64,000 nt of DNA from the NCBI RefSeq assembly GCF_001475935.1, contig NZ_LDQA01000022.1, positions 1 to 64,000 on the forward strand, read 5' to 3'. The notes beneath the pieces were generated by a model, which was given only the letters and a program-made list of their open reading frames with translations, was not told the origin of the DNA and made no database searches. The translations under genes and the position numbers were made by a program. Shown piece after piece: positions 8,985 to 54,343 of this stretch; the first letter of the stretch is position 1; the number at the start of each line of letters is the position of its first letter. The stretch comes from Aureimonas ureilytica (GTDB lineage: Bacteria > Pseudomonadota > Alphaproteobacteria > Rhizobiales > Rhizobiaceae).

Positions 8985-9854
8985 CTATTCCTGCAAATTG
9001 TCGGCCTCGGCCCGCAGGATCGCCTCGCGAATGCGCCCGCCCGTGGCGTCCAGCGCTTCGCGCGCGCGATCGAGGCCGCAGCCCGCGACATCGGCCACCA
9101 TGCGCTCTGCCCGCGCCCGCAGCTTGTCGTTGGTCGGGCGCATCTCCACCATTCGGCCGCGAAACACCTTGCCGAGGCGAATCATCACCGCCGTCGACAG
9201 GAGATTGAGCGCGATCTTCTGCGCCGTGCCGGCCGCCATGCGGGTGGAGCCGGCCAGCACCTCCGGCCCTGTGCGCAGGAGAATACCGATCTCGGCCGCC
9301 CGCAGGAGCGGGCCGCTCGGCTCGTTGGCGAAGGCGATGGTCAGGGCACCGCGCTCGCGCGCCTTGGCGATACAGGCCAGGGTGAAGGGCGTGCGCCCGC
9401 TGGCGGCAACGCCGATCACCACGTCGCGCCCGCAAAGCCCGGCCTCCGCGATCATCGCGGCAGCGGACGCTTCGTCGTCCTCCGCGCCTTCGCGCGCCAG
9501 CGCAAGGCTGGTGACGCCGCCCGCCAGAAGAAACACCGCGCGCTCCGGCGGCCAATCGAAGGTCGGGCCAAGCTCCACGCCGTCCTGCAAGGCCAGACGG
9601 CCGGACGTGCCCGCGCCGCAATAGACGACGCGGGACTCGCGGTCTCGGCCAAGCCGCGCGGCGACGGCATCGGCGGCCCGCTCGATGTCGGGCAGCGCGG
9701 CCGCGACCGACGCCAGCGCCTTGGTATGGCCGCCCAGCAGGACCTCCAGAAGCGCCGATGTCGGGCGCGTTTCGAGATCGCTGAAACGGGGGTCCGCACG
9801 CTCCGTTTCGGGAAGCGAGGGATCGGAAAGCGGGGGCGTGGCAGGCAGCGTCAT
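8985..9854 (-). CDS. murQ: N-acetylmuramic acid 6-phosphate etherase
   Basis: This 289-residue lyase/etherase cleaves the D-lactyl ether of MurNAc-6-phosphate to give GlcNAc-6-phosphate during cell-wall recycling. The family motifs are clear: RFSDLETRPTSALLEVLL near the start, the sugar-isomerase phosphate site VVYCGAGTSGRLALQDG, the long EGAEDDEAS segment, GVAASGRTPF, and the EVLAGSTRMAAGTAQKIALNLLSTAVMIRLG block. The start at 9854 is chosen since GATGAGG lies just upstream and the protein then has the usual length; a longer in-frame start at 9941 is less likely. AnmK and MurNAc kinase genes are not nearby. Confidence 0.92.
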   Translation of the reverse strand: MTLPATPPLSDPSLPETERADPRFSDLETRPTSALLEVLLGGHTKALASVAAALPDIERAADAVAARLGRDRESRVVYCGAGTSGRLALQDGVELGPTFDWPPERAVFLLAGGVTSLALAREGAEDDEASAAAMIAEAGLCGRDVVIGVAASGRTPFTLACIAKARERGALTIAFANEPSGPLLRAAEIGILLRTGPEVLAGSTRMAAGTAQKIALNLLSTAVMIRLGKVFRGRMVEMRPTNDKLRARAERMVADVAGCGLDRAREALDATGGRIREAILRAEADNLQE

Positions 9855-9977
9855 GACCTCATCCGGCTGGTCCAGATATCCTGCCGGTAAATCGCCGAAC
9901 GAGGGGAAAGAGTTCCCCGCGTCCGACCCGTCGCAAAGCATCGCGCTTGTGGAGCGGGCGCGGGGAGTCCAGCTCCG

Positions 9978-12032
9978 TCAGCCGTCCGCGATCATGCGTT
10001 CGATCCGGTTCGTCAGAACGGCGATGTCGAAGGGCTTGGTGACGACCTGCATCCCCGGCTCGAGGTGGCCGTGGCTCAGAACCGCGCTTTCGGCATAGCC
10101 GGTGACGAAGAGAACCTTGAGCTGGGGGCGCAGCGCTCTGGCGGCGTCCGCCACCTGCCGACCGTTCATGCCGTTGGGCAGGCCGACATCGGTGATCAGA
10201 AGGTCGATGCGCGCGTCGGACGCGATCACCTTCATGCCCTGCGGCCCGTCGCCCGCTTCGATCGTGGTGTAGCCGAGGTCTTCCAGGACATCGACCACCA
10301 GCATCCGCACGATGGGCTCGTCATCGATCACGAGAACCGTCGTGCCGGCTTCCGCCCGGCCGGTGGCCTCGAGTTGGACATTGGCTTCAGGCTGCGCGGC
10401 GTCGGCATCGTGACGTGGCAGATGGATGCAGACGCGCGTCCCTTGGCCCGGCACCGAATCGATCCGCACCTGCCCGCCGGATTGACGCGCGAACCCGTAG
10501 ATCATCGACAGGCCGAGGCCCGTGCCGACGCCGATCGGCTTGGTGGTGAAGAACGGATCGAAGGCCCGCTCGATCACGTCGGCCGTCATGCCCGTGCCGG
10601 TGTCGGACACGCAAAGCGAGACATATTCGCCGGGCTCCAGATCGCGCTCGCGCGCGGCCCGCTCGTCCATATGGCAATTGTCGGTCTCGATCGTGATCTG
10701 CCCGCCATCGGGCATGGCGTCCCGCGCATTGATACACAGGTTCAGGAGGGCGTTTTCGAGCTGGTTGGAATCCACGAAGGTCGGCCAGAGATCGGCCTGC
10801 GCTTCGGTGGCCACGCGGATATGAGGTCCGACCGTTCGGCGGATCAGCTCTTCCATGTCGCTGACCAGACGATTGACGTCGGTCGGCTTGGGATCGAGCG
10901 TCTGGCGCCGGGAGAAGGCGAGCAGGCGATGCGTCAACGCGGCGGCGCGCTTGGCCGCCCCTTGCGCGCCCGTGATGTAGCGCTCCAGATCGTTCAGTCG
11001 CCCTTGCGCCACACGCGTCTGAAGCATTTCCAGCGAGCCCGTGATGCCGGCCAGGAGATTGTTGAAATCGTGGGCGAGCCCGCCGGTAAGCTGGCCGACA
11101 GCCTCCATCTTGTGGGACTGGCGCAAAGCATCCTCGGCCCGTTCGCGCTCGGCGATGGCATCGGCCATGCGCGTTTCGAGAAGCTCGTTCAGCGCCTGGT
11201 TCTGGCGCTCCACCGCCTTGCGCTCGGTGATGTCGAGGGCCGTGCTGACGAGGCCGACAACCGCGCCCATCTCGTCGCGCAGGGGGGCCTTGGTAGAGAG
11301 CCAGACACTAGGCGTCCCGTCCGGCCGGCGGATCTCTTCTTCGGTTTCCTCGCGCTCGCCCCGCTCCATCACGCCCTGGTCGGTGGCGCGCAGGCGCGCG
11401 GCCATCGCCTGATCGTCGAAATATTCGAACTCGTTGCGGCCGAGATAGGCGTCCGGCGCTTTGCCGATCAGTTCGGTCGTGCCGCGATTGGCCATCAGGA
11501 TGCGGCCGTCCCGATCCTTGGCATAGACGACGCCGGGCACCGCTTCGATGAAGCTGCGCAGCAGCGCGGTGGCGCGGTCGCGCTCGGCCTCCAGCGCGCG
11601 GCGTCCTTCGATGTCGAGGAGCACGCCGGGAAAGCGCAGCGGCGTTCCATCGGGCGCCCGGTCCACCCGGCCGTTCGCCTCGATCCAGTAATAGCGGCCG
11701 TCCATGCGGCGCACGCGATATTGATGCGCATAGGCCCCGCCACGGGCGATCACATCCTCGATCGCGACGATCACGCCCGGCTTGTCCTCGGGATGAACGG
11801 TCTCGATGACCTGCTGGAGGCTGAGGCCCTGACGTCCGCGCGAAGGGTCGATGCCGAAGGCCTGTGCGAACTGCTCGTCGATCGTGAAGCGATCGCTCGG
11901 CAGGTCCCAGAACCATGTGCCGATGATGGCACCCGCCGCGAGCGCGAGCTGAACGCGCTCGGCATCTTCGGTTTCGCCGGGATTGGTGTCGAGGCGGCGC
12001 CTGTCGCGCGCGTCGCCATCAAGGACGCTCAT
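9978..12032 (-). CDS. Hybrid sensor histidine kinase, PAS-PAS-HK-receiver
   Basis: A 684-residue cytoplasmic kinase without membrane segments. Residues about 27-145 are a PAS/PAC unit (TWFWDLPSDRFTIDEQFAQAFG...VRRMDGRYYWIEANGRV), 155-272 a second PAS/PAC unit (GVVYAKDRDGRILMAN...ALDITERKA), then a coiled linker. The phosphorylated His321 lies in GGLAHDFNNLLAGI, a HWE/HisKA-4-type dimerisation motif. The ATPase N box is NLCINARDAMPDGG, followed by DTGTGM and GVGTGLGLSM. The C-terminal receiver domain (about 564-684) has acidic IDDEP and phospho-acceptor Asp615. The partner regulator is unknown and no input ligand is evident. A 12-bp tandem repeat lies just before the start codon. Confidence 0.92.
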   Translation of the reverse strand: MSVLDGDARDRRRLDTNPGETEDAERVQLALAAGAIIGTWFWDLPSDRFTIDEQFAQAFGIDPSRGRQGLSLQQVIETVHPEDKPGVIVAIEDVIARGGAYAHQYRVRRMDGRYYWIEANGRVDRAPDGTPLRFPGVLLDIEGRRALEAERDRATALLRSFIEAVPGVVYAKDRDGRILMANRGTTELIGKAPDAYLGRNEFEYFDDQAMAARLRATDQGVMERGEREETEEEIRRPDGTPSVWLSTKAPLRDEMGAVVGLVSTALDITERKAVERQNQALNELLETRMADAIAERERAEDALRQSHKMEAVGQLTGGLAHDFNNLLAGITGSLEMLQTRVAQGRLNDLERYITGAQGAAKRAAALTHRLLAFSRRQTLDPKPTDVNRLVSDMEELIRRTVGPHIRVATEAQADLWPTFVDSNQLENALLNLCINARDAMPDGGQITIETDNCHMDERAARERDLEPGEYVSLCVSDTGTGMTADVIERAFDPFFTTKPIGVGTGLGLSMIYGFARQSGGQVRIDSVPGQGTRVCIHLPRHDADAAQPEANVQLEATGRAEAGTTVLVIDDEPIVRMLVVDVLEDLGYTTIEAGDGPQGMKVIASDARIDLLITDVGLPNGMNGRQVADAARALRPQLKVLFVTGYAESAVLSHGHLEPGMQVVTKPFDIAVLTNRIERMIADG

Positions 12033-12040
12033 CGTGCCAT

Positions 12041-12064
12041 TGTCCTGTCGAGTGTCCTGTCGAG
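12041..12064. repeat. Two tandem 12-bp repeats before the histidine kinase gene
   Basis: TGTCCTGTCGAG occurs twice without a gap, at 12041-12052 and 12053-12064. On the minus strand the copies lie 9-32 bases upstream of the histidine kinase ATG and each carries AGGACA, so the nearer copy may supply a weak ribosome binding site. It could be a regulator half-site pair or simply a slippage duplication. Confidence 0.5.
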
Positions 12065-12291
12065 CCTTTCCGTGTGGCGCGACCGTCTGCCATGTTTAAT
12101 AGGAGCGTTAGGCACCAAAGCAAGTTTGTGGCGCAGAGGCGGCGAGGTCGTGCACGGCGCCCCCCGGCTTGACCCTTTCACCCGCTTCTGTCTGTTGAAT
12201 GGGTGAAACAACGCCCCGTCCAGCCTCGGAGGGGGCCAGCGCGCTGCGTCCCGACGTCCGAGCGCTTGCATCGCGCGCGAGAAGGAAAGCC

Positions 12292-13473
12292 ATGGCAGAG
12301 ACGAGTTCGGCCTTGCCCATCCGCCCTCCAGTGCTTGCCCATCCGCCGCGCCGGCGGCTGGAGGAACTGGACGGTCTGCGAGGCATCCTGGCGCTGTTCG
12401 TCGTCGTCTATCATCTCCGGGAACCGCTCGGGGTCATATCCGGCCCTTTGACCCGCGCCCTGCCGATCGTGGGGGAGGGCTGGTTCGCCGTCGACGTGTT
12501 CTTCGTGATGAGCGGCTTCGTCATGGCCTATGTCTATGGCTCCACCTTCGCCCGGAAGGTGACGTGGGCGGAGTACCGGGCCTTCTTCGTCGCCCGCATC
12601 GCCCGGCTTTATCCCGTCCACCTCGCCGCCCTGCTGGTGCTGGCGATCGTCTTCGTCCCGCGGCTCTATGGCACGCCCGAGGTCATGGACGAGGCGGGAC
12701 GGTTTTCCTGGCAGTCGGGCCTCGCCTCGCTTCTGATGCTGCATTCGCCTTGGATCGATCATCGAAGCTGGAACTTCCCCTCCTGGTCGATCTCGGCGGA
12801 ATGGCACGCCTATGTGCTGTTTCCGTTTCTGGTCGGGCCAGTCCTGCGCAGGAAAGCGATGTGGCTCACGATCCTCGTGGCGCTCTGCGTCGGCGGCGTG
12901 TTCGCGCTCTATTGGGCCGATCTGCCGCCGGATCGCTATCCGACCAATGGTCTGGTGGTCCTGGCGCGCGTTCTGCCGCTGTTTCTAGCGGGCGTGGCGC
13001 TCTATCCCCTCCATCAAACCTTTGGGGAACGGTTCGCCCATCCCGCGTTGGCCTTGATGCTGGCAGGCCTCGTTCTCGCCCTTCTGAACGTTCCTGATCT
13101 CGCGCCTGTGGTGGTCTTTCTGATCCCGCTTCTGACGCTCGCCGTTCTCAACGCGCCTGTGCTGCAAGGCCCTCTCAGCTCCGCACCGGCGCGCTTTCTC
13201 GGCTCGATTTCCTATAGTCTTTATATGACCCATGCCTTGGTCATGCTGCTGGGCTATCCGCTCGTATGGTACGGGGCGCGCCTGTTTTGGAGCGAGGCGG
13301 CCGCGCACGCCAGCGCGCCGTTCCAGTGGGGCGTTCTCGCCGCCTCGATCCTCACGTCCATCGTTCTGGGAACGCTGGTCTGGCGCTTCATCGAAGTGCC
13401 CGCCCGCTCGCGCGTCGCGCGGCTTCTGGCGCCGGGCGGCCCCGCGCGCGAGGCGAGGTCTGCCCGAGCCTAA
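12292..13473 (+). CDS. Acyltransferase 3 family membrane protein (OafA-like)
   Basis: A 393-residue polytopic membrane O-acyltransferase. The family signature RRRLEELDGLRGILALFVVVYH with its catalytic Arg and His opens the first membrane segment, and about ten hydrophobic segments follow. SWSISAEWHAYVLFPF and SYSLYMTHALVMLLGYPLV are further conserved blocks. Such proteins transfer acetyl or other acyl groups to surface polysaccharides, O-antigen or peptidoglycan. The start at 12292 is chosen because AAGGAAAGCC precedes it; the frame is open further upstream. It ends overlapping the convergent GntR gene by four bases. No polysaccharide genes are adjacent, so the acceptor is unknown. Confidence 0.88.
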   Translation: MAETSSALPIRPPVLAHPPRRRLEELDGLRGILALFVVVYHLREPLGVISGPLTRALPIVGEGWFAVDVFFVMSGFVMAYVYGSTFARKVTWAEYRAFFVARIARLYPVHLAALLVLAIVFVPRLYGTPEVMDEAGRFSWQSGLASLLMLHSPWIDHRSWNFPSWSISAEWHAYVLFPFLVGPVLRRKAMWLTILVALCVGGVFALYWADLPPDRYPTNGLVVLARVLPLFLAGVALYPLHQTFGERFAHPALALMLAGLVLALLNVPDLAPVVVFLIPLLTLAVLNAPVLQGPLSSAPARFLGSISYSLYMTHALVMLLGYPLVWYGARLFWSEAAAHASAPFQWGVLAASILTSIVLGTLVWRFIEVPARSRVARLLAPGGPAREARSARA

Positions 13474-47806: not shown

Positions 47807-48283
47807 CTATCGCAGACGCGAAAGCCGGCCTGCGACGATGCGTTCGATGCGCCAGAGCGCGTCCGATAAGGCTGGTCTGTCGGCGCAAGGAATCTGGCGC
47901 GTCAGATCGTCATTCATGGCGGACCAGACCTGCCGGACCTCGCTGCGGACCCGCGCGCCATCCTCGGTCAAAACCACGAAGGTTCGCCGGAGATCGGCGT
48001 CGTCCATCTCGCGCCGGCACCAGCCCCGCCGCTCCAGACTGTCCAGCATTTTCGAAACGGTCGAAGGCCGAACGGAAAGCTCCCGCGCGATCTCGCAAAT
48101 GCCGCGCCGTTGGTCGGGATCGATCGCGTCCAGAAGCTGATCCTGCCCCGCCACGACGCCGATTTCGGCGAGCTTCAGCGAGATGAGCTGGCGCGTGGAC
48201 TTGGACAGAGCGAGGAGCGGTCGAATGAGATTGTCTGGCACGTTCTCACATGTCGGCTCGGCCGTTATTTCTGCCACGGTCAT
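47807..48283 (-). CDS. MarR-family transcriptional regulator
   Basis: A 158-residue winged helix-turn-helix protein. The DNA-binding region is RRGICEIARELSVRPSTVSKMLDSLERRGWCRREMDDADLRRTFVVLTEDGARV, with the D-D-x-R-R wing expected for MarR. The N- and C-terminal helices make the dimer. MarR proteins usually respond to small phenolic or oxidising compounds. It diverges from the gamma-glutamylcyclotransferase-like gene and converges on the acyltransferase. The target is not evident. Confidence 0.85.
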   Translation of the reverse strand: MTVAEITAEPTCENVPDNLIRPLLALSKSTRQLISLKLAEIGVVAGQDQLLDAIDPDQRRGICEIARELSVRPSTVSKMLDSLERRGWCRREMDDADLRRTFVVLTEDGARVRSEVRQVWSAMNDDLTRQIPCADRPALSDALWRIERIVAGRLSRLR

Positions 48284-49042: not shown

Positions 49043-49177
49043 ATGGATCATCCGCGCGGGATCAAGACTGAAGGCGATCAGGTCGCCCACCGCGCCATGA
49101 AGGGCTGGGTGATCATCCTCATTCTGGCGGCACTGGCTCTGCTGCTAATTGTCTTCGTTCTGGTCGGGCAGAGCTAG
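49043..49177 (+). CDS. Possible small single-pass membrane protein
   Basis: An open frame of 44 codons, with a second in-frame ATG at 49097 leaving 26. The last 26 residues (KGWVIILILAALALLLIVFVLVG) are one strong hydrophobic span of the kind found in small bacterial membrane proteins. Neither ATG has a good ribosome binding site. It converges with the phosphopantetheinyl transferase gene and overlaps its stop by a few bases. It may be real, or a chance hydrophobic frame. Confidence 0.35.
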   Translation: MDHPRGIKTEGDQVAHRAMKGWVIILILAALALLLIVFVLVGQS

Positions 49178-49809
49178 AAAGACGCCAGTGTGACGATCCT
49201 TGGGAACGTCAGATGCCGGAGCTGGAACCTGTGGCCGGTGCGGGTCGTGGCGTGGCCGGCGGGCAGATCGATGGCGATGTCGCCATAATCCAGGAAGCGG
49301 CCGTCGAGCGGGAAGGCAGCTTTGTAGACCGCCTCCTTGGCGCTGAAGAGAAGCCGTGCCGCGAAGCTCGGTTCCAGATCGCCGGTGCGGTCGTTGGGCA
49401 TGACGACGAGATCGAGAAGCTCGTCCGGCAGGGGCAGGCTGGGCTCCACGTCGATGCCGAGCGAGCGGATCGCGCCGACGCTTGCCACCGCCGCCACCGC
49501 CATCGTCTCGTCATGGGCGAGCGAGCCGACCACCCCGTCCGGCCAGAGCGGCTGGCCCGAGGGGCCACGTGGAATTTCAACCGCTTCGCCGAGCCGCGCC
49601 GACAGAAGCGTGCGCGCAGCCAGCCGAGCCGCGCCGCTCGCCCGCCGCCGCTCCGCCCCGCGCGCAGAGATCGAGCGCGCTTCGGCTGGCAGGAGATAGC
49701 TCTCGTCGCCCGGCCGGATCCGGCGGCAGGCCAGCGCGATGCCCTCGGTGACGAGGCGGCCCAGCGCCGCGGCGAGCGCGATCTCGTCCGGGGCGTCGTC
49801 CGTCGTCAG
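49174..49809 (-). CDS. 4'-phosphopantetheinyl transferase (EntD/Sfp type), apparent CTG start
   Basis: This 211-residue frame activates carrier proteins by adding phosphopantetheine from CoA to serine. Motifs include SYLLPAEARSI near residue 38, PRGPSGQPLWPDG, SLAHDE, IRSLGIDVEP (Mg-binding GIDVE) and LFSAKEAVYKAAF (the xxKEAVYK motif). It is open back to a stop well inside the GNAT gene, but from the GTG at 49533 back it has no ATG, GTG or TTG at all; starting at 49533 would delete the first 90 residues of the conserved domain. A CTG at 49809 overlaps the GNAT stop (C-TGA) and has GAGG seven bases upstream. It would prime the peptide synthetase of the same operon. Confidence 0.82.
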   Translation of the reverse strand: MTTDDAPDEIALAAALGRLVTEGIALACRRIRPGDESYLLPAEARSISARGAERRRASGAARLAARTLLSARLGEAVEIPRGPSGQPLWPDGVVGSLAHDETMAVAAVASVGAIRSLGIDVEPSLPLPDELLDLVVMPNDRTGDLEPSFAARLLFSAKEAVYKAAFPLDGRFLDYGDIAIDLPAGHATTRTGHRFQLRHLTFPRIVTLASF

Positions 49810-50285
49810 CGTCGGGCCTCGGCGGCAGGCCAGACGAGCCGAGCGATCATTTCGCCGTCCTCGTCCAACCCCTTTTCCTGAAAGCCGGCCGCACGATAAA
49901 GCCGGCGCGCGGCCTCGTTGCCGGGGTCGTAGCAGATCGAGACTTCGCGGACATGGCCGAGCGCGCGGATCTCCGACAGGGCGGCCTGCACCACCGCTCG
50001 GCCGTAGCCTTTGCCCTGCTCATCGGGAGCGATCATCAGGCGATAGATGCGCGCCTCGCTCTCGCTTTCCGAGGCGTCGTACATGAGGAACCCGACCAAT
50101 TGATCGCCAGCCAAGACGGCGCGCGGCCGGGCGTCGGCGTCTTCTTCCGCTTCGGCGAGCGAGTCGGCGTTGCTGGCGAGGAAATGCGCCTGTGACTCTC
50201 CCAGGACCATCGCCGCGATGGCGGTGCGGTTGGTGTCATCGACGGGCGCCAGCCGCACCTTGGCTTGAGCGGGCTCGGTGCTCAC
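49806..50285 (-). CDS. GNAT-family N-acetyltransferase
   Basis: A 159-residue acetyltransferase. The core has ARIYRLMIAPDEQGKGYGRAVVQAAL, where Q-G-K-G-Y-G-R is the acetyl-CoA pyrophosphate loop, then VSICYDPGNEAARRLYRAAGFQEKG. The GTG at 50285 overlaps the synthetase stop as GTGA and has GGAG eight bases upstream, so it is preferred over an in-frame GTG at 50294. Between a polyamino-acid-type synthetase and its PPTase, a likely job is to acetylate the product or precursor, or to give self-protection against a cationic peptide. Both are inferences. Confidence 0.82.
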   Translation of the reverse strand: MSTEPAQAKVRLAPVDDTNRTAIAAMVLGESQAHFLASNADSLAEAEEDADARPRAVLAGDQLVGFLMYDASESESEARIYRLMIAPDEQGKGYGRAVVQAALSEIRALGHVREVSICYDPGNEAARRLYRAAGFQEKGLDEDGEMIARLVWPAAEARR

Positions 50286-53200
50286 GCGCCGCACTCCGTT
50301 CCGCCAACGCCTGTGACCGGCCGAACGAAGCGGCTGAGCTTGGCCGGGTTTCCGCTCCAGATGGAATGGGGCTCCAGAACCTCGCCCTTCATGACGAAAG
50401 CGTCCGTATCGGCCATGGAGCCTTCGCCCATAGTCACGCCGTAATGCACGAAGGCGGCGGGGCTGAGCGTGCAGCCCTTGCCGATGCGGATCAGGTCCGA
50501 CTTGAACGCGCCTTCCTCCAGCGAATGGGCCTGGATGACGCAGCCCTCGTTCAGCGTCGCATCGTCGCCGATCTCCACCAGGGAGCGCTCGGTGAGGTTC
50601 GCACCCGCGTCATAGACGCGCTTGCCGACCTTCACGCCCAGCATCCGCAGCACCATGGGACGGAAGGGCGTGCCGGGGAAGAGATTGACGATGGCGGAAT
50701 CGGCGAGCTTCCAGTGACGCTCGTGCCGCCAGAAGGAGCGATCGTAGATCGTCGTCATATGCGGCTTCAGCTTGCGAAAGCCCAGACTCGCGCGCTCGAT
50801 CAGAAGCTGCATCGGGATTTCGATGGCGACCACGAGAAGCGAGCCGACGAAGAGCGCGACCGCGCCCCAATCGGTGTAATAGTTGAGCGCCCGGTCGCCG
50901 ATGGCGAGCGCGATGAACAGCTCCACCCACAGCACCGTCAGCATCAGGACGCCGGTCACGGCATTGTGCCGATTCTTGAGGCGCACGCGCTGGCGACGCT
51001 CCTGCGCACTGACGCTCGCGATCAGTTCCTTGTCGCGCGAAACAAGGCGGGGAATCTCGAAGGGCGGAGAGCCGAGCAGGCCGACATTCTCCCGCACCGG
51101 GCCGCTGATGGGCACCATGACCTTGGTGCCGAGCAGGCAATTGTCGCCTGTGCGCGCGTCGGACGGGAAGAAGATGTTGTTGCCGAAATAGTTCTGCGCG
51201 CCGACCTTGGTATGCTCCAGCCGGAAGGAGGAGGCGGACTTGTGCATGTTGAGCATGAACAAGCCGTCCGACACCATCGTATGGCTGCCGATCTCGCAGA
51301 GATGCGGGCTTTCCTGCTGCTGGTTGCTGCCGAAATTCGAGCCTGTCTGGGTGACGGTGTTGAGGTTCCAGCCGAGCGCCCGGATGTAATGGACGATGGC
51401 CGAGGAGTCGCCGAACAGGACGTTCAGGATCTTGTTGTTGGAGCAGAACTCCACCGCCGTCTGCAGCCAATAATGGAAGCCATAGAGCGTGTAGGTGCGG
51501 CCGGGCTTCAGCACGAGGCCGACCACGCGCGGCACCACCAGCGCCGCCAGAAGCGAGACGGCAATATAGCCGAACAGCGTCACCGTGGTGCCGAGCGCCA
51601 CGATGCCGATGGTTTCCTGATAGTCGTCGCCGACATTCTGCCAGTAGCTGTGAAACAGGAGCGGGAAGGGTGTGATGAGCGCAAAGAGCGCGATCAGCTG
51701 CATCACTTCGAACAGCCCGCGCCGAAGCTCCGACAGGCGGCGGTTCTCGACCTTGCAGTAATCGGCGTCCGTGCGCACGGCCGGAGAGCCGTGCCAGCAT
51801 TCGCCGTCCGGGATGGACTGGCCGCTATGCAGCGAGGAGGCATGGCCGAGCTGCGAGCCGTCGCCGACCTTGGTGCCGATGTCGAGCACGCAGCCCGCGC
51901 CCACGAAGGCATTGTCGCCGATCGTCACCGGGCCGGTGTGAATGTAGCCGGCGCGCGCGTGATAGCCGAGCACGATCGACTCCTTGCGGATGATCGTGTT
52001 GTCGCCGATCTCGATCAGATCGGTGCAAACCGGCACGTAGCGGCATTCGATGATCGTGTTGTGCCCGAGCCGCGCGCCCAGGAGCTGGAGATACCAGCTG
52101 TAAAGCGGGCTACCCCGGAAGAGGACGACGGGCGCGGTGCGGATCAGCGTCTGCACCACCCAGAAGCGGTAATAGCGCGCGCTCCAGATCGGGATCGACT
52201 CCTGCTTCCAGCGTCCGATCAGCGTCCATTTGGCAAGGATCGCAAGCCCTGACATGCCGAAGAAGATGCCGGCCGAGAGCAGCACGCAGCGCAGATAAAG
52301 CTGGATCGGCGCGTCCAGCTCGACATAGACCCAGTCGAGACCCCGGTCGAAGACCCAGAGGCCGAAATAGCTGTAGACCGAGTAGAACAGAAGCTGCGCC
52401 GCGCCTGTGGTCCAATAGGCCAAGTTCGTCGCGCGGTGCGTCGGCACGGGCTCGATCTCGGCCTGCTCGATCTCGTCCGGCGTCTGGAGATGCTCGGCCA
52501 GCCGCGCGACGCTGGGATAGAGGTAGATGTCGCGCATCGAGGTCGTGCCCCAGCCCGGCTGCGTGCGCACGCGGGCGCAGAAGCGCGCCATCAGCAGGGA
52601 GTTGGCGCTGAGATCGTCGAAGAAATGATCCTCGACGGAAATGCGCTCGACACCCAGGATTTCGCGCGCGGCATCCACCAGGAAGCGCTCGTTGTCGCTG
52701 CGCGGCTCGACGATCTCACGGTTGGCGTTGGTCTCGTTGAGCTGTGGCTTGGGCAGCTTACGCGTGTCGATCTTGTCCGACACGGTCATGGGAAGTGCGT
52801 CCAGCTGCTCCAGATAGGCCGGCACCATATAGGCGGGCAGGCGACGCTTCAGCTCGGCCGAAAGTTCGGGCTTGGACAGCGGCTCGGCCTCCGTCTTCAG
52901 CGCGTAATAGGCGGCAAGCTCGGTGCGCCCCGGCTGGATTTCCACCGCCGTCACCGCCGCCTGGGCGATGCCGGGCTGCTCCAGAAGGATCGCCTCGATC
53001 TCGCCCAGCTCGATCCGGTGGCCGCGAATCTTCACCTGCGTGTCGATGCGCCCATGATACTCGATCTCGCCATGCGAATTGATATGGCCGAGATCGCCCG
53101 TGCGATAGATGCGCGCCGAAGGGTTGTTCGGCAGGCCGATGAAGTCGGGAATGAACTTCTCGTCCGTGAGATCGGGGCGGTGCAGATAGCCGGCGGCCAG

Positions 53201-54343
53201 GCCGATACCGGCAATGCCGATTTCGCCGAGCTCGTTGCCCGCCGCGAGCTTCGCCTCGGCCGGGTCCAGAATGACGATGCTGTAGGTCGGCAGCGGACGG
53301 CCGATCGTCACCGGGCGGCCGGGAACTAGCGTCGCCATGGTCGCCGTCACCGTCGCTTCGGTCGGGCCGTAGGTGTTGAGGATTTGCAGTCCCGGCCGGG
53401 ACCAGCGCGACACGAGCCCCTGTGGGCAGGCTTCGCCGCCCACCAGAATGAGGCGCAGGCTCGGCACGTCGCTCTCGATGGAGGAAAGCAGCGTCGGGCT
53501 GCACGCCATGCATTGAATTTCGTGCTGGTTGAGGAAGTCCGACAGTTCCTCGCCCACCGGCGTATAGCGATGGGGCGCGGGATAGATCGTCGCGCCAGCC
53601 GCGAAGGGAACCCAGATTTCCTCGGTCGAGAAGTCGAAGGCGATCGTCATGCCCTGATAGACGCGGTCGCCCGGTCGGTAGCCGTAGCTTGCCGCCGCTA
53701 CCTGCACGAAATTGGCAATGCTGCGGTGAAGGATTTCCACACCCTTCGGCCGGCCCGTCGTGCCCGAGGTGTAGAGAATGTAGCAGGCGTCCTGCGGGCC
53801 GCCCCGCTGGCCGAGGGACGTTTCCGGCTCTGCCGAAATCTCAGCTTCGATCTCCTCGATCAGGAGGCTATCGACGGGAAGCGCGCGGGCGAGATCCACA
53901 TAGGCCGCCTCCGACACGACGAGAGCGATCGCGGCATCCTCGATGATGAGGGCCATGCGCTCGGGCGGGAAGGCGGTGGCGAGCGGCACGAAGACGCCGC
54001 CCGCCTTCATGATCGCCAGTGTCGCGACATAGGTCATGGCCGAGCGGCCGAGCAGCAGCCCGACGCGCGTGCCCGGCGTCACCCCGCGCCGTTCCAGAAC
54101 ACGCGCCATCTGGTTGGCGCGGGCATCGACCTCGCCATAGGTCCAGGACCGGCCGCCCGAGACGACGGCCGGCAGGGCCGAGAAGCGCTCCGTCAGACGT
54201 TCGAACACGTGATCGAGCCGCTCGCCACCGGGCGCTCCGCTCGGAAAATCGTCCCCGCGCAGGATAGGCGCAGGCTGGCCGCCGGACATGTCGGTGACCG
54301 TCTGGGATGCGGCGGAAAGGGAGCTGAGCTGAGAAGCTGGCAT
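50282..54343 (-). CDS. Pls/PosA-family single-module nonribosomal peptide synthetase (adenylation, carrier, membrane and hexapeptide-repeat domains)
   Basis: A 1353-residue membrane synthetase. Adenylation domain, about residues 45-530: A3 YILYTSGTTGRPKGV (188-202), A5 NTYGPTEATV (323-332), A7 YRTGDLGHI (413-421), A10 Lys524. Carrier domain, about 550-620, with phosphopantetheine Ser582 in DDLSANSLLMARF. The rest alternates membrane segments (about 645-705, 875-945, 1140-1190) with three left-handed beta-helix blocks of hexapeptide repeats (about 755-860, 1045-1110, 1235-1340). No condensation or thioesterase domain is seen. This is the layout of epsilon-poly-L-lysine synthetase Pls and the Acinetobacter poly-ornithine synthetase PosA. 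The pocket has D237, F238 and E241; Glu at that third position occurs in lysine codes, so a cationic amino acid is plausible. The ribosome binding site at 54343 is weak; an in-frame ATG at 54289 also fits. Confidence 0.88.
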   Translation of the reverse strand: MPASQLSSLSAASQTVTDMSGGQPAPILRGDDFPSGAPGGERLDHVFERLTERFSALPAVVSGGRSWTYGEVDARANQMARVLERRGVTPGTRVGLLLGRSAMTYVATLAIMKAGGVFVPLATAFPPERMALIIEDAAIALVVSEAAYVDLARALPVDSLLIEEIEAEISAEPETSLGQRGGPQDACYILYTSGTTGRPKGVEILHRSIANFVQVAAASYGYRPGDRVYQGMTIAFDFSTEEIWVPFAAGATIYPAPHRYTPVGEELSDFLNQHEIQCMACSPTLLSSIESDVPSLRLILVGGEACPQGLVSRWSRPGLQILNTYGPTEATVTATMATLVPGRPVTIGRPLPTYSIVILDPAEAKLAAGNELGEIGIAGIGLAAGYLHRPDLTDEKFIPDFIGLPNNPSARIYRTGDLGHINSHGEIEYHGRIDTQVKIRGHRIELGEIEAILLEQPGIAQAAVTAVEIQPGRTELAAYYALKTEAEPLSKPELSAELKRRLPAYMVPAYLEQLDALPMTVSDKIDTRKLPKPQLNETNANREIVEPRSDNERFLVDAAREILGVERISVEDHFFDDLSANSLLMARFCARVRTQPGWGTTSMRDIYLYPSVARLAEHLQTPDEIEQAEIEPVPTHRATNLAYWTTGAAQLLFYSVYSYFGLWVFDRGLDWVYVELDAPIQLYLRCVLLSAGIFFGMSGLAILAKWTLIGRWKQESIPIWSARYYRFWVVQTLIRTAPVVLFRGSPLYSWYLQLLGARLGHNTIIECRYVPVCTDLIEIGDNTIIRKESIVLGYHARAGYIHTGPVTIGDNAFVGAGCVLDIGTKVGDGSQLGHASSLHSGQSIPDGECWHGSPAVRTDADYCKVENRRLSELRRGLFEVMQLIALFALITPFPLLFHSYWQNVGDDYQETIGIVALGTTVTLFGYIAVSLLAALVVPRVVGLVLKPGRTYTLYGFHYWLQTAVEFCSNNKILNVLFGDSSAIVHYIRALGWNLNTVTQTGSNFGSNQQQESPHLCEIGSHTMVSDGLFMLNMHKSASSFRLEHTKVGAQNYFGNNIFFPSDARTGDNCLLGTKVMVPISGPVRENVGLLGSPPFEIPRLVSRDKELIASVSAQERRQRVRLKNRHNAVTGVLMLTVLWVELFIALAIGDRALNYYTDWGAVALFVGSLLVVAIEIPMQLLIERASLGFRKLKPHMTTIYDRSFWRHERHWKLADSAIVNLFPGTPFRPMVLRMLGVKVGKRVYDAGANLTERSLVEIGDDATLNEGCVIQAHSLEEGAFKSDLIRIGKGCTLSPAAFVHYGVTMGEGSMADTDAFVMKGEVLEPHSIWSGNPAKLSRFVRPVTGVGGTECGA

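Follow-up and report, generated by a model that had tools for sequence, protein, structure and literature searches.

A conserved Pls/PosA-family synthetase cassette of Aureimonas ureilytica with its own acetyltransferase and phosphopantetheinyl transferase, a candidate source of a cationic isopeptide

The window analysed here is a stretch of 64,000 nucleotides from Aureimonas ureilytica (contig NZ_LDQA01000022.1, positions 1 to 64,000), part of a draft genome of 5.0 Mb in 183 contigs. Its minus strand encodes a three-gene cassette comprising a peptide synthetase of the Pls/PosA family, a GNAT acetyltransferase, and a 4'-phosphopantetheinyl transferase (PPTase). A first-pass annotation had described a 1353-residue synthetase followed by the GNAT gene (GTGA overlap) and the PPTase gene (CTGA overlap), and these open reading frames are confirmed at the same coordinates. 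The genes, and the domains and candidate site of the synthetase, are as follows.

50282..54343, minus strand: Pls/PosA-family single-module synthetase, 1353 aa; open frame with ATG start at 54343; TIGR02353, 817.5 bits
53183..54202, minus strand: adenylation core of the synthetase (AMP-binding), residues 48-387, holding nine of the ten code residues; PF00501, 1.6e-74
52772..53002, minus strand: AMP-binding_C, residues 448-524, the last of which, K524, is number ten of the code; PF13193
52487..52684, minus strand: carrier domain (PP-binding), residues 554-619, attachment serine S582; PF00550, 5.6e-7
50342..52408, minus strand: predicted polymerisation domain with three pairs of membrane helices and three blocks of hexapeptide type (left-handed beta-helix); TIGR02353 and an AlphaFold2 model of modest confidence
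50501..50533, minus strand: Q1271-x-H1273-xx-E1276-xxxx-K1281, third repeat, candidate active site; family-wide conservation
49806..50285, minus strand: GNAT acetyltransferase; GTG start, four-base GTGA overlap with the synthetase stop; profile and fold searches
49174..49809, minus strand: Sfp-type PPTase, 211 aa; apparent CTG start, four-base CTGA overlap with the GNAT stop; PF17837, PF01648

The synthetase is a member of the Pls/PosA family, as the first-pass annotation had proposed: TIGR02353 matches residues 646-1334 (9.1e-246), its 817.5 bits lying well over the cut-off of 423.1, and TIGR01733 is matched at 403 bits (cut-off 317.4). The protein has one adenylation and one carrier domain (Pfam), as this family requires, and none of its five Pfam matches is to a condensation or thioesterase domain; hexapeptide families are matched at residues 805-834. 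The column of S582 is serine in 108/108 aligned rows. Pls, which makes epsilon-poly-L-lysine in Streptomyces albulus, is of the same family and domain order, and PosA, the delta-poly-L-ornithine enzyme of Acinetobacter baumannii (L151), shares the order of adenylation domain, carrier domain and TIGR02353 region at 29% identity. The nearest named synthetases are those of Aureimonas sp. AU20 (75% identity) and A. ureilytica (73%). The start of the window synthetase is unsure, as orthologue matches often begin near residue 27.

The adenylation pocket code reads DFEALGTVTK, in which D237 and E241 align with code positions 1 and 3, the pocket residues for both diamino-acid amines. It matches none of the characterised codes that could be compared: PosA, read from L151, has DMEHNGTVSK, and Pls has Ala at position 2 (PMC10522769), where the window has Phe. 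The unlikeness to the PosA code makes it less likely that the synthetase is PosA, but not that it may use ornithine. A homopoly-amino acid, the product first suggested for this locus, would agree with the chemistry of the family and is a candidate product.

A scan of 84,980 species genomes returned 102 relatives of the synthetase. The code is DFEALGTVTK in 75 and DFEAMGTVTK in nine of 102 aligned rows, which contain duplicates (L008, for example, is the window itself). A quick maximum-likelihood tree was computed from 105 rows, three short or odd sequences (L119, L115, and L156) having been dropped from 108 aligned synthetases; L155 and L157 were not long enough to align. In this tree the DFEA(L/M)GTVTK-type sequences form one Hyphomicrobiales group of 84 rows with a support of 100, referred to below as the clade. 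The rows just outside it are DFEC- and DFEP-type synthetases; the tree carried a long-branch warning, and the deep branching order is therefore uncertain.

The three-gene order recurs in relatives. Among the best 80 of the 102, which are used for all locus counts, 73 loci have a same-strand PPTase homologue downstream of the synthetase and 64 a GNAT homologue so placed; the GNAT is cognate at 60, after hits of about 30% identity lying about 1 kb away (L052, L058, L077, and L079) were set aside, and 59 loci have both partners. Two of the 80 (L103 and L105) come from actinobacteria and do not belong to the clade, within which the counts are 73/78 for the PPTase and 60/78 for the cognate GNAT. 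A chance neighbourhood of three genes is ruled out by this recurrence of the same order. No other gene adjoins the synthetase at as many loci: in 81 neighbourhoods the largest further clusters reach 24 and lie on the opposite strand, a same-strand cluster immediately upstream occurs in 12, and no conserved flanking gene for transport, regulation or degradation stood out. Among the five-base dyads of 28 upstream regions, the most frequent occurred in eight (three in shuffles), resolving no regulator site; it seems to be a coding-region start shared by relatives, and the seven-mers are GC-rich words.

The PPTase carries both domains typical of Sfp-type enzymes over cut-off (4PPT_N and ACPS, Pfam), so that the operon does have its own PPTase; NF042923 is matched at 1.4e-30, yet below its cut-off. 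The frame has no ATG, GTG or TTG upstream of 49533, and orthologues match the protein nearly from its beginning (in most loci over some 180-209 of the 211 residues), which makes CTG the best available start. A CTG start is also found for the PPTase at L065, although start picking favours whichever candidate is closest to the preceding stop, and hence overlaps. Only two ACPS-family genes were found in the genome, the other being a 135-aa AcpS-like gene (by eye); the cassette PPTase is therefore probably the only Sfp-type enzyme of the genome, and may also serve a second Pls/PosA synthetase described below.

The GNAT has an Acetyltransf_1 domain (Pfam). A profile of 32 GNAT rows, compared with solved structures, finds as the closest solved relatives two spermine/spermidine acetyltransferase chains, 2fl4 (1.6e-23) and 9dsb (1.7e-23), with the next GNAT at 8.8e-9. 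Both chains are of the Enterococcus faecalis enzyme, which we take to be BltD-type, and they match the profile over its full length; identity in the structural match is about 25%, and the GNAT differs from that enzyme in being coupled to a peptide synthetase. The GNAT rows are acidic throughout (isoelectric point 4.25-5.12 across the 32), with invariant acidic residues. On the tree, GNAT presence requires six label changes, a number as low as which was reached in 0/500 shuffles and which is too high by up to one, since L152 was scored as lacking a GNAT that it has. The first-branching clade row (L073) has the GNAT, which is missing from one 16-row group and from L032, L051, and L086; this distribution suggests an early gain with later loss within the clade.

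Two precedents bear on what such an enzyme might do. In streptothricin producers, Sat/STAT acetylates the beta-lysine amine of the cationic product, and this confers self-resistance (PMC11702664); the partner of pls in the Streptomyces operon is the degrading peptidase PldII, postulated to protect the producer (PMC8117764), whereas the partners in the window are the GNAT and the PPTase. Together these lead to the proposal that acetylation takes the self-protective role here. The likeness to Sat/STAT is one of principle, the sequence match being weak (NF000487, 3.9e-5, 23.3 bits against a cut-off of 420). The first-pass annotation had found no resistance or degradation enzyme at the locus; this cannot be maintained, as the GNAT, nearest to spermine/spermidine acetyltransferases, is an obvious candidate for self-protection and, by analogy, is probably itself the "missing" resistance enzyme.

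Whether the GNAT acts on the polymer or on small amines is the question raised by its closest solved relatives in the profile search. Acetylation of free polyamines, or of the monomer, might for example stop other amines from competing at the synthetase; it would accord with the spermine/spermidine acetyltransferases and with a weak match to the EctA model (1.2e-4, 22 bits against a cut-off of 120.6). A housekeeping enzyme should, however, occur elsewhere too, and in 151 related genomes the GNAT profile gave five matches at E<=1e-18, of which the four strong ones (1.3e-62 or better) all adjoin a clade synthetase. We consider a free-polyamine or monomer substrate unlikely, and action of the GNAT on the cationic product of the synthetase reasonably probable. 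Several observations weigh against the latter: the fifth match (4.7e-29) is not beside any synthetase; the single window GNAT sequence finds the same two chains with the uncharacterised GNAT 3owc about equal; a fold search with the GNAT model (mean predicted local distance difference test score, pLDDT, 86.7) places 3owc first, followed mostly by SpeG and the E. faecalis enzyme; and the cognate GNAT is missing in 18/78 clade loci, although two of these (L060 and L086) have fewer than 750 bases left downstream. The fifth clade synthetase among the 151 genomes (G029, L011) also lacks a GNAT. From the 18 loci it follows that the GNAT is not essential to synthesis.

For the monomer, PosA provides the reference. 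Its Asp217 and Glu221 bind the two amines of ornithine, Thr304 and Ser313 touch the side-chain amine, and Phe at the position of Met218 is said to mark diaminopropionate and diaminobutyrate enzymes, Met218 being the residue that sets monomer length (PMC10522769). The window pocket keeps the Asp and Glu, a Thr at the Thr304 place, and a Thr at the Ser313 place, and has Gly-Thr at code positions 6 and 7 as in PosA; in DFEC-type enzymes, position 6 is Ser and position 7 either Ala or Val. Phe at position 2 has been described as the mark of the shorter monomers (PMC10522769), such that the pocket residues are split in what they predict of the monomer.

The nearest branch of the tree, that of the PddA-type or DFEC-type relatives, likewise has Phe at position 2, but differs from the window in its code, DFEC(L/V)S(A/V)VTK, and in a mostly linked diaminobutyrate transaminase. 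A transaminase of this kind adjoins the synthetase in seven of nine DFEC/DFEP-type loci (L108, L109, L110, L111, L153, L160, and L103). That of L108 is cut by a contig end and passes one of three main models; the neighbour in L153 is annotated ectB, and those in L160, which sits outside the DFEC/DFEP branch in the tree, are annotated as transaminase and aspartate kinase; that of L103 lies directly upstream of the synthetase and is 36.5% identical to that of L109. None was seen beside the synthetases of L105 and L154. No cognate GNAT was found beside these nine loci, unlike the window; a PPTase-like gene (by eye) adjoins at L108 and L109. The PddA system further differs in having racemase and aspartate kinase genes (PMC8225329). 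The layout of a diaminopropionate system is exemplified by L119, where an SbnA/SbnB pair adjoins the synthetase (SbnA cut, below cut-off).

Beside the 78 clade loci, by contrast with these relatives, the transaminase query found nothing above 30% identity; four Rhizobium clade loci have other transaminases at 28-29%. In the A. ureilytica genome itself the best scores all fall below cut-off: dat at 241 bits (401.6), ectB at 228.6 (552.2), and SbnA at 213.8 (349.95). Neither dat nor ectB is over cut-off in 24/39 carrier genomes, SbnA is over cut-off in 0/39 (G177 falls short by 0.3 bits), and SbnB has no match beside the 80 loci, the neighbourhoods to which that search was limited. With the linked transaminase lost, and with no dat or ectB over cut-off in the own genome and 24 of 39 carriers, we infer that the clade switched to a primary-metabolism diamino acid, with ornithine as the first candidate. 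Within the own genome, the transaminase that matches best (C35) was rejected as a candidate; it belongs to a GabT/GabD-like pair (by eye), and its identity to the transaminases linked to synthetases is about 30-34%.

The opposing possibility is that the cassette makes, as is probable for its relatives, poly-diaminobutyrate or poly-diaminopropionate, and that a general transaminase or some other pathway encoded elsewhere in the genome supplies the monomer. The Phe of code position 2 (PMC10522769) speaks for it, as do the nesting of the clade within the diaminobutyrate-linked branch, by which poly-diaminobutyrate made via a promiscuous transaminase is possible, and the occurrence of dat over cut-off in 15/39 carriers (with ectB in 14 of those 15). 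The three changed code residues, the vanished linked transaminase, and the genomes without dat, ectB or SbnA over cut-off speak against it, and we regard it as an unlikely but substantial alternative. A further difficulty for ornithine lies in a second intact Pls/PosA synthetase of the same genome (C116; L007:4887-8900; 1337 aa), the code of which, DMEHNGTVTK, is one residue off that of PosA, such that a second poly-ornithine enzyme would be redundant. With these points weighed, a diamino acid of primary metabolism is the better-supported prediction for the monomer, and ornithine in particular falls a little short of an even prospect. A premature stop (one TAA) considered for the C116 paralogue was rejected, the frame being open over all 1337 aa and the stop being the gene's own end. 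The gene next downstream of it is MarR-like (by eye), and no GNAT or PPTase match lies beside it.

The C-terminal part of the synthetase, residues 626-1353, was modelled with AlphaFold2 (25 rows) as three pairs of long helices alternating with strand blocks, the layout reported for PosA (PMC10522769); with a mean pLDDT of only 64.7, the model is usable for layout only. Members of the family are expected to have three acyltransferase-like domains in tandem, surrounded by six transmembrane helices. Conservation was assessed over 107 rows that take in PosA-, DLED- and DFEC-type enzymes: Q1271 is kept in 107/107, and H1273, E1276, and K1281 each in 106/107, the exception being L118, a sequence cut off where its contig stops. 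Among the histidines of the C-terminal part, H1273 alone is kept to this degree, the next best being kept in 95, and Y1301 and K1319 (of MKGE) are conserved alongside; all lie in the third repeat, and the same QxHxxE...K...Y...MKGE set occurs in the third repeat of PosA, which also shares the Asp, Glu, and Thr contacts of the pocket. Positions conserved in the other repeats are mostly glycines and prolines, but include K705, Y724, R726, N1055, and T1225. Because the conserved His/Glu/Lys/Tyr set is confined to the third repeat, the alignment suggests a single catalytic centre in a pseudo-threefold domain, and the set provides a testable hypothesis for how this domain joins monomers.

A Foldseek search with the C-terminal model placed hexapeptide acyltransferases on top, none of them significant; a weak model without significant fold matches counts against the reading favoured below. 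The resemblance to acyltransferases of small acceptors would also fit a synthetase that makes a very short oligomer, or that moves one amino acid onto an envelope acceptor, with no free polymer, and the lack of any conserved exporter or degradation gene among the neighbours is in keeping with such a role. This is improbable in our estimation, given that the characterised family members listed in PMC10522769 make homopolymers and that PosA shares the residues of the candidate active site.

The reading that we somewhat favour, taken as a whole, is of a self-contained cassette that would make a short, cationic, side-chain-linked homopoly(amino acid) acetylated by the GNAT; that the product is a cationic isopeptide is, within this, very likely. 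As in the family generally, the PPTase would prime the carrier domain of the synthetase. The adenylation domain would then activate one alpha,omega-diamino acid, with L-ornithine or another from primary metabolism likelier than diaminobutyrate or diaminopropionate. The membrane-bound C-terminal domain would condense monomers successively, probably at one active site around H1273 in the third repeat, and may pass the chain through the membrane. Finally, the acidic, spermidine-acetyltransferase-like GNAT would acetylate a free amine of the chain or of an early oligomer, which might lower its charge, protect the producer, or cap the chain. A wider proposal, tentative and on balance doubtful, is that the clade represents a widespread family of N-acetylated cationic isopeptides, derived from poly-diaminobutyrate ancestors by a monomer switch and a recruited GNAT in Hyphomicrobiales, in which acetylation, not hydrolysis, would control charge, length or self-toxicity.

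The first-pass annotation had suggested an undescribed polymer system in an alphaproteobacterium. The presence of the family there is known, as Pls/PosA homologues with another unusual code have been reported in Rhizobia and Methylobacterium (PMC10522769); it is the clade with its GNAT for which no description was found. Full-text searches of open-access papers, including the Aureimonas and rhizobium literature, turned up no description of the clade, its code or its GNAT, subscription papers being mostly outside this coverage. PosA itself is a single-gene operon (PMC10522769), and no GNAT or PPTase is annotated beside L151. The known homopoly(amino acid)s are few in number, and their role in biology has been described as unclear (PMC9606270). 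The clade may be regarded as a natural experiment, in which the same scaffold has an altered pocket, has lost its monomer gene, and has gained an acetyltransferase. Many rhizobia and other bacteria associated with plants or soil carry it, some of them on large plasmids, so that a product would be within reach in strains that are easy to handle.

Plasmid records with a relative number 51, of which 11 are 60-80% identical to the window synthetase; the cassette can thus travel on plasmids. A Phyllobacterium plasmid (L163:4001-9770) encodes the synthetase, with the code DFEALGTITK, and a GNAT; type IV secretion genes adjoin, and no PPTase match was found in 12 kb. A Rhodococcus plasmid synthetase with the code DFEYLGTVTK (L158:4926-10977) is followed by a BPL_N protein and an HGSNAT-type membrane acetyltransferase, perhaps an independent pairing of a Gly-Thr code with an acetyltransferase. 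The synthetase of a Streptomyces plasmid (L159:4848-8867) has the code DSECYGGVTK, which has been reported for an enzyme from Bdellovibrionales whose activity with arginine is modest (PMC10522769).

Other loci vary in their arrangement. Mesorhizobium comanense has two copies (L032 and L036), one without the downstream GNAT and PPTase, and at L086:12020-12708 a transposase-like frame (by eye) directly follows the synthetase, and neither a GNAT nor a PPTase occurs in what remains of that locus sequence. A Pseudonocardia contig (L105:2411-6385 and 9067-13161) has two Pls/PosA synthetases in tandem. In the window itself, a MarR-family regulator is encoded at 47807-48283, downstream of the cassette on the same strand, with an opposite-strand gene in between.

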